Source: Saccharibacillus kuerlensis DSM 22868 (GTDB taxonomy: Bacteria; Bacillota; Bacilli; Paenibacillales; Paenibacillaceae). Taken from it: a stretch of DNA of 64,000 nt. Where the stretch lies: assembly GCF_000378145.1 (NCBI RefSeq), contig NZ_KB899279.1, positions 141,127-205,126 on the forward strand, in the 5' to 3' direction. Under the pieces are notes generated by a model. It was given only the letters and a program-made list of their open reading frames with translations, had not been told where the DNA came from and searched no databases. A program made the translations under genes and the position numbers. Numbering within the stretch: the first letter of the stretch is position 1; every line of letters starts with the position of its first letter. Positions 5,116 through 62,724 of this stretch are shown here, in pieces.

Positions 5116-6348
5116 TCAAATGGTCCATTGTCCGGCGCGGAACACTGCTTCAACGCTTCCATCCTGCCGTTCTCCGTCGATATCCAATTTGTCAGAGCCG
5201 ACCATAAAGTCCACATGGGTCAAGCTCGTATTGCCGCCCCGAGCCAGCAGCTCGTTCTGCGACAATTCCGTTCCACCCTTCATATTAACCGGATACGAGC
5301 TGCCCAGCGCAAAATGGCAGGACGCATTTTCATCGATCCCCGTGTTATAGAAGATGCGGTTCAGCTGTGAGATCGGCGAATTGTGCGGCACCAGCGCCAC
5401 TTCGCCAAGATACTTCGCGCCTTCGTCCGTATCCAGCAGCGATTTCAGATGCTCGCGTCCGGACTCGGCATCGTAATCGACAACTCGTCCGTTTTCAAAA
5501 GTCAGCGACAGCTTGTCAACGAGGCGCCCATTCAGATTCAGCGGCATGGTCGATGTCACCTTACCGTTCACGCCGGTGCGATTCGGCATCGTGTACACTT
5601 CTTCCGTCGGCATGTTGGCTACGAAGTATACGCCTGCTTGGTTGGTATCGCCGCCTCCAAGCCACAGATGATCCTGAGCCAACTCGACTTTGAGATCGGT
5701 GCCCGGCGCGCGATAATGCAAGCTCTTGTAATTTTTGTCGTTCAGCTTCTGCTGCATCACTTTCAGCGTCTCGATATGATTGCGCCAGTTCTCGACAGCA
5801 TCGCCTTCGCCTACCCGGTTCATTTGGAAAATAGTATCCCACATGGCATCAATGCGCTCGTTTTCCGGCAGATCGGCAAAGACTTTATTCGCCCAAGCAC
5901 GCGTCGGTGCTTTGATCAGGCACCAGGACAGCTTGTTGCTCCGGACGTAATGCTGATAGCCTTTGCGTGCCGCAGCTGCTGCTTTGGTCGCCCGAGCGAC
6001 ACGTGAAGATTCGATGCCGCGGTACAGCTCCGGGTCCGGTACCTTGATATGCATAACCGCTCCGCCGCCTTCAGCCAGCTTTTCCAACGCTTCAGCCTTG
6101 AATGCCGGATAATAATCGAACGTGTCCTCCGCAGCGTACTCGTAGCGCAGCCGCGTCGAGGCTTCGTCCTCCCATTCGACTTCAACGTATTTCGCTCCCG
6201 CTTCATACGCTTTTTGAATAACGAGCCGCGCAAACTCCGCCGCTTCGATGGGAGACTGCAGATGCAGCACCTGCCCTTTTTGAATATTGACCCCTACCTT
6301 TACGACCAGTTCCGCGTATTGTTCTAACTTTTGTGCAAATGTGTCCAT
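5116..6348 (-). CDS. ampS: Aminopeptidase, M29 family
   Basis: 410 aa, the full length of the M29 (AmpS/PepS/aminopeptidase T) metallopeptidases, which remove N-terminal residues from peptides using two metal ions. The C-terminal catalytic half carries the conserved metal-ligand regions: MPTEEVYTMPNRTGVNG (first Glu), LGEVALVPHNSPIS (second Glu), ENASCHFALGSSY (His and Tyr) and LTHVDFMVGS (His-x-Asp). There is no signal peptide, so it is cytosolic. The ATG at 6348 follows GGAGAG. The gene stands alone on the minus strand, with a repeat-rich spacer upstream. Confidence 0.93.
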   Translation of the reverse strand: MDTFAQKLEQYAELVVKVGVNIQKGQVLHLQSPIEAAEFARLVIQKAYEAGAKYVEVEWEDEASTRLRYEYAAEDTFDYYPAFKAEALEKLAEGGGAVMHIKVPDPELYRGIESSRVARATKAAAAARKGYQHYVRSNKLSWCLIKAPTRAWANKVFADLPENERIDAMWDTIFQMNRVGEGDAVENWRNHIETLKVMQQKLNDKNYKSLHYRAPGTDLKVELAQDHLWLGGGDTNQAGVYFVANMPTEEVYTMPNRTGVNGKVTSTMPLNLNGRLVDKLSLTFENGRVVDYDAESGREHLKSLLDTDEGAKYLGEVALVPHNSPISQLNRIFYNTGIDENASCHFALGSSYPVNMKGGTELSQNELLARGGNTSLTHVDFMVGSDKLDIDGERQDGSVEAVFRAGQWTI

Positions 6349-6675: not shown

Positions 6676-6860
6676 AATAAGTGCATATATACAACTATTT
6701 TGAACATTTCCTTCTTTTTCAAGCGAATAAGTGCATGCATACAACTATTCTTCACCTTCTCCTCCATTCCAACTATTTTCACGTGAAATAGTTGTATCTG
6801 AGCACTTAATTATCGAAAACCAAAAAATTCTGTTCAAATAATTGTATTTTCACACTTATT
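6676..6860. repeat. Four-box intergenic element, variant A (copy 1)
   Basis: Direct boxes at 6676-6700 and 6726-6749 read AATAAGTGC, then six or seven bases, then CAACTATT. Inverted boxes at 6786-6810 and 6836-6860 read AAATA..TTGTAT and end in CACTTA. Box starts lie at offsets 0, 50, 110 and 160, identical to the copy at 57942-58126. Short ORFs across this span are repeat shadows. Confidence 0.9.
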
Positions 6861-7000
6861 TTGATTCTCTCTCAATCGGCTGTCAGATCGGCTGCCGCTC
6901 GACGACCTTCATCCGTGCACCGATGCACAAATCTCGATTCTTTTTGCAAACTGAAGCGCTTTCTGTTATATTCGCGGCAACTACAGTCATTCAGAAAATG

Positions 7001-7072
7001 CAGCAGATACAGCAGATACAGCAGATACAGCAGATACAGCAGATACAGCAGATACAGCAGATACAGCAGATA
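7001..7072. repeat. 9-bp tandem repeat, 8 exact copies, upstream of a GNAT gene
   Basis: Eight perfect copies of CAGCAGATA. They are followed to about 7145 by degenerate relatives (GATTCGCCAGATA, ACGGTAGAT). The array ends about 128 bp before the ATG of the acetyltransferase gene. The unit preserves reading frame, but no start signal precedes it. Confidence 0.95.
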
Positions 7073-7200
7073 GCGTTGATTCGCCAGAAACGGCGGATAT
7101 ACCAGATATCGCTGATTCGCCAGATACGGTAGATACGGTAGATATCGCAAATGTGCACATGCGGAAGATACTGCTGATTCGCCAAAAGGAGCCAACGTCC

Positions 7201-57623: not shown

Positions 57624-57941
57624 CGCCTCGACCTCCTGCTTTCCAGCCCGGCTGCTCCGCAGAAATTATTCGCCTGTTTGTTAACCTTACTAGGGCATGT
57701 ACGCAAACTCATCAACTTTTTCGAATAGAAGATGCTTTCAACACCCAGGTCTGGTTTCCAAATTCAAATGAAGTCTTTGAACGTAAATACGAAGCCAATT
57801 ATTGGTTCGCGTATATGCCGTAATGGAACGCGTCCCATAAGAAATGCTGAATAAGACGCGTTCAACAAGAAACGATGAATAGGATACTTCTAATAAAAAG
57901 CGTCTAATAAGATTCCATCAATAAGATTTAAGGTAAGGCCC
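57624..57941. other. Gene-free region with degenerate AATAAG repeats
   Basis: 57830-57930 carries irregular ~25-30-bp units with AATAAGA and GCGTC/TTCAA. No gene or promoter was assigned. Confidence 0.5.
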
Positions 57942-58126
57942 AATAAGTGCTTATATGCAATTATTTTCCGCAAAAGCTCACCTAATCGTACAATAAGTGC
58001 GTAGGTGCAACTATTTCACATAAAAGTAAGGTTAGAAACGCGAAAACGCTGAAATAAGTGTATGGGAGCACTTATTTCAGCGAAAGTTAAAAATGTGAGA
58101 AAAATAAGTGTATAAGCGCACTTATT
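57942..58126. repeat. Four-box intergenic element, variant A (copy 2)
   Basis: Direct boxes at 57942-57966 and 57992-58016 (AATAAGTGC, then 6-7 bases, then CAA..ATTT). Boxes at 58052-58076 and 58102-58126 are fully palindromic (AAATAAGTG..CACTTATT). The third extends to 14-bp perfect arms, CGCTGAAATAAGTG / CACTTATTTCAGCG (58047-58082). Offsets are 0, 50, 110 and 160. Confidence 0.9.
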
Positions 58127-58273
58127 TTCTTTCCCCCTATTACACCTTCAATAAACTCTTTTGGATTTTGTGGAAACAGGTTTGCATACAGGCCCTAAAC
58201 GTTTAAGTTTAAAATATTGCGGGGTTCGCTGCACGCGTACTCCATTCTACTCCACTCGAAAGAAGGCGAGATT

Positions 58274-62514: not shown

Positions 62515-62557
62515 CCTGTTGGATGTATAAGGGATAAATATATCCGTTGCAGATAAG

Positions 62558-62655
62558 GACCGGCTCCACTTCCCTACGCCGGTACGAGCCGGATCAGGTT
62601 CGAAGGGTCCAAGAACTGTTCTTGTCTCAGCCGCGCCGCGGCTCCCCCAGTGGAA
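62558..62655 (-). promoter_or_regulatory. TPP (THI-box) riboswitch aptamer
   Basis: On the minus strand GGGGGAGCC and GGCTGAGA are followed by ACCCTTCGAACCTGATCCGG and later GCGTAGGGAAGTGGAGC. These are the conserved pyrophosphate- and pyrimidine-sensing parts. Bound TPP should favour the downstream terminator and shut off tenA-thiM-thiD. Confidence 0.95.
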
Positions 62656-62724
62656 TGCGATATTCGATTGACGAACGGGCAAGCTGTGTTACGTGTCTAC
62701 TGTAGCTTCTCCCGCTATGTCTTG

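Follow-up and report, generated by a model that had tools for sequence, protein, structure and literature searches.

Here we describe a large, old family of intergenic elements of 185 bp in the Paenibacillales, with dozens of copies per carrier genome, in which four near-palindromic boxes stand at a spacing fixed almost to the base. Judged from its sequence, the element is probably a DNA-wrapping site, in which the setting of the DNA on a protein would be encoded by the boxes and by the bases between them. The analysis starts from a stretch of 64,000 nucleotides from Saccharibacillus kuerlensis (the window), which contains two complete elements. Their parts, the repeat that carries the first of them and the neighbouring genes (given as context only) are as follows.

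57942..58126, no strand: complete first element, 185 bp, dyad-symmetric, with spacers of 26, 37 and 26 bp
57942..57965, plus strand: box 1 of the first element
57992..58015, plus strand: box 2 of the first element
58053..58076, minus strand: box 3 of the first element, inverted, within a longer palindrome with 14-bp arms
58103..58126, minus strand: box 4 of the first element, inverted
57691..58197, no strand: 507-bp repeat carrying the first element, with terminal inverted repeats TAGGGCATGTACGCAAACT / AGGTTTGCATACAGGCCCTA, a recent family of the S. kuerlensis genome
58217..59209, plus strand: UbiA-family prenyltransferase gene, downstream neighbour of the first element
6676..6860, no strand: complete second element, common to S. 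alkalitolerans VR-M41 at the orthologous place, with a weak match at a similar place in G011
6676..6699, plus strand: box 1 of the second element
6726..6749, plus strand: box 2 of the second element
6787..6810, minus strand: box 3 of the second element, inverted
6837..6860, minus strand: box 4 of the second element, inverted
5116..6348, minus strand: M29 metallopeptidase gene, neighbour of the second element

All eight boxes follow the 24-bp pattern AATANNTGY-N6-RCANNTATT, which is widened by the adjoining bases to A-AATA-NN-TGY-N6-RCA-NN-TATT-T in 33 pooled elements. The boxes start at 0/50/111/161 in both elements, with boxes 1 and 2 direct and boxes 3 and 4 inverted, and the steps between them (50/61/50 bp) are identical in the two loci and correspond to about 5, 6 and 5 helical turns; the boxes are near-palindromic and polar. 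In the 64-kb window the pattern matches 11 times, three of the eight boxes being hit on both strands, where shuffled sequence predicts 0.11 matches, and every one of the window's eight boxes with at most one mismatch falls in one of the two elements. At the same threshold, no four-box match is given by seven other geometries or by three shuffled windows, and a family model trained without either window copy finds only these two window loci up to E 10. The original prediction that two loci share one architecture of two direct and two inverted boxes is thereby confirmed, and the palindrome with 14-bp arms that it reported in the first element is readable around box 3. Its offsets of 0/50/110/160 need a small correction: the 50 stands, while the other two are +111 and +161 for the 24-bp box, and become +110 and +160 if the preceding A is counted.

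Searching the S. kuerlensis genome (G000) with the 185-base query returns 23 rows with at least 121 aligned bases and 81-100% identity, several of them clipped at contig ends, together with a tail of divergent or short matches. The box pattern with up to three mismatches matches 223 times in this genome, against 6 for a reversed-pattern control. Sixteen of 30 fetched loci have exactly 50/61/50, another adds a fifth box to this geometry, three deviate by a single base, and the remaining 10 are truncated or only partly recognised.

An alignment of 39 elements fills 185 columns without a gap. Searches with the family model (at most 150 candidates scored per genome, matches halved since both strands match) give about 43 elements in S. 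kuerlensis, 41 in S. alkalitolerans VR-M41 (G008), 83 in G002 (a count inflated by arrays), 75 in G011, 27 in G003, 26 in G006, 18 in G015, 12 in G013, 11 in G009 and 1 in G012, and none in the other 6 of the 16 congeners. Within the close clade, defined as the 10 genomes in which the M29 protein shares 87-100% identity with the one in the window, nine are positive, S. kuerlensis included, and the exception is G014. Across the order, 116 of the 246 genomes searched, and 28 of the 46 genera, have model matches with E ≤ 0.001, weak ones included, in a search resting on about 10 scored candidates per genome. Two boxes 50 bp apart, used as a pattern, match in 27 of 394 genomes of the family, and the reversed pattern in none among the matches listed. 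At least 84 stretches of public genomes match, and the titles of the 80 listed name Cohnella, Saccharibacillus or Paenibacillus in every case. A first DNA search of relatives, far less sensitive, was positive in 7 of 59 genomes, the own one included. A scan of viral sequences returned one stretch, in which a single degenerate box and no four-box element were recognised.

Forty further regions were fetched by the model, of which 15 come from congeners and entered only the larger spacing and single-element phasing sample. The other 25 are strong matches outside the genus; measurements cover 23 of them, of which 7 belong to the same family and 16 to two other families, and leave out two arrays with boxes about 51 bp apart (in G022). 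The box places in these elements come from lax matches (up to four mismatches), a few chosen by hand among overlapping ones. In 21 of the 23, no measured step departs from 50/61/50 by more than one base (three of these elements have only three boxes scored); the two outliers are 48/60/50 and 51/52/51, the latter with a middle step shorter by about one turn. The core TGC-N6-GCA is kept outside the genus, while the outer arms vary. The idea of a fixed-spacing family had been staked on finding further copies at that spacing in relatives, and it survived the search.

Boxes also occur in longer arrays. In G022 (L309, L310), tandem arrays carry a box every 49-51 bp with similar spacers and without the 61-bp step. 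In G002 (L343:8912-10009), 21 boxes over 1.1 kb form an array built of element repeats; close by is a histidine kinase gene, whose relative in S. alkalitolerans (87% identical) is also near an element. In P. phocaensis (L064:18-552, L346), tandem 50-bp duplications of a box with its spacer have lengthened a four-box element into one of 11 boxes.

The geometry is held while the spacer sequence diverges. When any box spacing between 48 and 62 was allowed in the single contig of G002, 70 forward matches were obtained; the 50 distinct places listed are all at 49-51 or 61-62 and are spread over 0.12-3.27 Mb, with 19 of them in one array. In 91 loci chosen neither by spacing nor by the model, the 145 distinct box pairs up to 130 bp apart lie at 49-51 (60 pairs), 61 (24), 99-100 (4) and 110-111 bp (57), and nowhere else. 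A larger, less even sample of 249 box pairs, which includes four loci fetched by the 50-bp pattern (L126-L129) and the model-fetched loci that the 91-locus count leaves out, adds only 60, 62, 72, 101-102, 109, 112 and 121-122 bp. With the recent S. kuerlensis copies left out, the median best-orientation spacer identity within a genome is 0.36-0.42 (five genomes), against 0.33-0.38 between species, although some closely related pairs occur within genomes (maxima 0.69-0.93); in 14 P. sacheonensis elements, shifted ones included, it is 0.34. With the geometry kept almost to the base and the spacers near between-species identity, sequence comparison indicates that the spacing is selected, as had been suspected from the two window copies.

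The spacers nevertheless share a rhythm. This was first measured in 33 of 98 elements, chosen for exact 50/61/50 steps, a low number of box mismatches and spacers no more than 55% identical to those of any element kept. Their pooled spacer AT content is high at positions 31-33, 41-43, 81-83 and 91-93 and low between, with a period of 10.0 bp and a power of 126, a value that in 2000 within-spacer shuffles never exceeds 8.2; for the 20 Saccharibacillus elements alone and the 6 P. sacheonensis elements alone, none of 500 shuffles reaches the rhythm in either case. A held-out set of 16 elements (of 70), selected by the same rules, gives a period of 9.95 bp in the same phase, with a power of 81 against at most 11.8 (0/2000 shuffles), and all 49 independent elements correlate positively with the rhythm. 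AA/TT peaks at 2+10n, and GC, CG and GG/CC peak in antiphase at 7+10n, phase-locked to the boxes. In the 23 elements from outside the genus, the peaks lie 20.5 and 30.5 bp from the box centres (0/2000 shuffles), and the same 0/2000 is obtained for the 21 that remain after removal of two related ones, for the 7 of the same family alone and for 14 from other families alone.

Single elements carry the rhythm as well: at 10.0 bp all 66 examined have an AA/TT resultant (a sum that includes the boxes) above that of their own shuffles, and at 10.5 bp 59% do. In a set of 66 elements the rhythm extends into the flank, where the intervals -32..-2 and -62..-32 are each reached by 0/1000 shuffles; beyond about -60 it is marginal (32/1000). 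In the flank nearest the boxes a period of ~10.5 bp fits slightly better than 10.0, which counts against the proposed wrapping site.

A rhythm that stands on the same grid as the boxes is the trace to be expected of a protein surface that would bend the DNA all along the element. In nucleosome-positioning sequences, AA/TT recurs in phase and GC in antiphase with a period of about 10 bp. The four-box element appears to work like these, with phased AA/TT and antiphase GC over more than 180 bp, the features by which a nucleosome-like wrapping site would be recognised, and the phasing may be the mark left by a protein around whose surface the DNA is wrapped; the element differs in being bacterial and dispersed and in having four specific palindromes, and the likeness is one of sequence. 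One reading in the original prediction was an array of sites for protein, spaced by some five helical turns, and this is now strongly supported at the level of sequence, in part by the 10-bp AT phasing, which that prediction had not noted.

In the wrapping site that we favour, each box would bind a protein dimer, and about four dimers would assemble with the DNA into one particle, the DNA being bent continuously around them with its minor groove facing the protein at AT-rich positions, as in the nucleosome. The core repeats at 10.0 bp and shows no excess at 10.5 bp, which suggests that the DNA would follow a superhelical path and not a bend in one plane. The role, which is less certain, may be that of a chromosome-architecture or supercoil-constraining site scattered between genes. 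The central bases of the polar boxes are species-specific in the four genomes compared, which exceeds the needs of a simple dimer site and counts against this explanation; it suggests that the protein and its sites have changed together.

A bolder form of this proposal, which we advance tentatively and hold to be somewhat less probable than its contrary, is a nucleosome-like code running across a bacterial order, in which a dedicated protein of four dimers would wrap ~185 bp and ~60 bp on each side into a left-handed superhelix at about ten to eighty loci, in a setting encoded by the boxes and by a selected 10-bp AA/TT rhythm. Bacterial chromatin is generally viewed as being without defined, sequence-positioned particles of fixed size. 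Loci with exact geometry and a rotational code preserved in evolution would amount to a list of genomic addresses for such a particle; a locus family of this kind would make its protein findable by pull-down and would allow tests of what bacteria gain from a wrap fixed at chosen places.

Candidates for the protein were sought among known wrapping proteins and neighbouring genes. LrpC/AsnC and RemA octamers of Bacillota have been proposed to wrap DNA around four dimers or a ring of eight, the AsnC/LrpC wrap being proposed as nucleosome-like, in the part of PMC8481266 drawn on here. Across the 16 congeners, the number of Lrp/AsnC genes does not rise with the number of elements, in which the element differs from what a binder of that family would lead one to expect: there are 3-4 in nine carriers of the close clade, 3 in G014 and 5-6 in six distant congeners. 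The family, a natural candidate, was rejected as the binder by copy number, there being no positive association, though the count does not exclude one particular paralogue. For LrpC, AsnC and RemA we know of no such site geometry. A search for a partner gene by neighbourhood, in which the ORFs of 129 loci and nine long-array regions were clustered, found only large multi-copy families recurring; from their length and pairing, these were taken for transporters and regulators. Both this outcome and the Lrp/AsnC count weigh against the wrapping site.

Two of the competing explanations are about equally improbable in our judgement. The first holds that the element is a non-autonomous mobile element, whose boxes and wrap serve its own transposition complex and whose copies are genomic parasites without a host function. 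The dispersed, intergenic copies fit this, and the close S. kuerlensis copies are alike beyond the 185 bp, being parts of an inverted-end repeat that measures 507 bp in the window. A look for empty orthologous sites had been proposed as a check, and no 507-bp element is seen upstream of the orthologous UbiA-family gene in S. alkalitolerans or G013; when the two flanks of the window copy are joined, patches of them can be aligned with S. alkalitolerans sequence, with a possible TA target duplication. In another genome (G224; L206-L211), the same four-box core sits inside a different repeat of ~300 bp, with ends GTTACTACTTAGG / CCTRAGTAGTAAC around the core. Positions are also seldom common to congeners. 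Between 29 S. kuerlensis and 34 S. alkalitolerans elements, one pair has a common neighbour at 90% identity and one at 71%, besides the pair at the 6676 locus. Four further element pairs in different species do have a common neighbouring gene at ≥87% identity. Since most compared positions are not shared, the turnover of elements is real; its route was not found in this analysis, a point that also counts against the wrapping site.

Against a mobile element stand the older copies. No flanking inverted repeats above shuffles are found in S. alkalitolerans (33 elements), G360 (14) or among older S. kuerlensis copies (12); three in G002 all lie within one box array, whereas two of eight G011 elements (L032, L042) have a 13-of-14 inverted flank match against 0 expected, a point in its favour, although these matches could be terminators or carrier ends. 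No clear target duplication is detected in 141 elements, where lengths of 2 to 8 bp are near expectation (largest departure 10 against 6.2 ± 2.2 at 4 bp, box edges ± 5 bp). The inverted ends of the G000 and G224 carriers are unrelated, and the flanking sequence of the recent family has no match at the divergent S. kuerlensis copies; from these different carriers and carrier-free copies it follows that the core is sometimes carried by mobile repeats and is not defined by them. At the 6676 locus, both the S. kuerlensis and the S. alkalitolerans element lie ~330 bp upstream of the same (M29) gene; their spacers are unrecognisable as related, while the boxes and the geometry persist, with the boxes in each species' style, which dead parasites would not do. 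Retention of this kind, with the spacers replaced, also speaks for the wrapping site. A weak match occurs at a similar place in G011 (E 4e-5), and no element is seen at the other 13 of the 16 orthologous loci.

The suggestion of a small mobile repeat thus stands in part: the first window copy does ride in a 507-bp inverted-repeat element, and the older copies in three genomes lack flanking repeats and clear target duplications, so that the tests support hitch-hiking only. The two carriers share terminal inverted repeats with MITEs, and the bare element, in the three genomes with enough older copies, differs from MITEs in the same two respects; as a MITE it is unsupported for these copies. The 507-bp repeat has about 20 copies in S. 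kuerlensis, several at contig ends, and is probably responsible for breaks in the assembly.

The second unlikely alternative is that the elements are operator arrays of an ordinary transcription regulator, which would loop or wrap the DNA to repress promoters. Palindromic, dimer-like boxes with polar half-sites in intergenic DNA would suit an operator. Of 113 elements, 109 lie outside ORFs of at least 200 aa (found by a simple longest-frame rule) and 4 inside; the recent S. kuerlensis copies (L001-L023) were left out of the placement and box-polarity counts and of the larger spacing and single-element phasing counts. The gaps that hold an element number 80: convergent gaps account for 26 (21.3 expected from length and 18.0 from count), tandem gaps for 38 (38.6 and 40.1) and divergent gaps for 16 (20.1 and 21.9). 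Placement therefore roughly tracks intergenic length, and promoter-bearing gaps are if anything slightly avoided. This lack of preference argues against a promoter operator. The annotated neighbours are ordinary and unrelated to each other, comprising GH31, UbiA, M29 peptidase and GNAT, and further a histidine kinase, a PLP enzyme, an ABC transporter, another GNAT and a CobW C-terminal domain.

Rather less credible again is the view that these are preferred sites of a general topoisomerase such as gyrase, whose DNA wrap would account for the phasing, as for BIME-2 in E. coli, which binds gyrase according to a section of PMC2817692. The phased pattern has a length suitable for a gyrase wrap, but its 10.0-bp core period is shorter than would be expected for a right-handed one. 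Elements are missing from 6 of the 16 congeners, whereas gyrase is to our knowledge universal, and we know of no need of this enzyme for four fixed palindromes.

A family of structured RNAs or cruciform hairpins, an earlier suggestion in keeping with the near-palindromic form of each box, is contradicted and can be set aside as extremely improbable: in 196 boxes of 49 elements, the variable stem positions show no covariation (113 pairs against 108.3 ± 5.6, and 69 against 63.4 ± 6.0), the central bases do not form a palindrome, partners 1-4 and 2-3 match in 269 and 263 of 490 cases against 261 and 267 for the controls 1-3 and 2-4, neither window copy matches an Rfam family, and we know of no RNA explanation for the 10-bp AT phase. 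The only match in the window at gathering score is a TPP riboswitch (Rfam RF00059, 82 bits) at 62554-62658 on the minus strand.

Returning to the wrapping site, its nearest relatives in form among repeats are REP, BIME and REPIN sequences, which are short imperfect palindromes with many extragenic copies per genome and ordered clusters, some REP and BIME binding architectural proteins or gyrase (PMC2817692, in part). The four-box element shares with them its many extragenic palindromes and its clusters with defined orientation. REP and BIME are defined by a GTAG or CGTC tetranucleotide at the palindrome end (PMC3733652, in part), and neither tag is found in the box consensus or its adjoining bases, which are A/T-rich. 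The RAYT gene (Y1 transposase, PF01797) occurs in only one of the 16 congeners, G007, which has no element, and is absent from the carrier congeners. The four-box element further differs in its stems without compensatory changes (the same 196 boxes), in its spacing fixed almost to the base and in its 10-bp phased spacers. REP/REPIN membership was ruled out on the absence of compensatory stem changes and of the Y1 transposase from carrier congeners. A search of open-licence papers found no description of a four-box element, in agreement with the original prediction, whose author knew of no described family of this layout, and PMC12306157 contains none of the genus names looked for.

One further repeat lies close to the second element: a short tandem repeat (CAGCAGATA-like) occupies window positions 6998-7130, before a GNAT gene, and is not seen at the same place in S. 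alkalitolerans.
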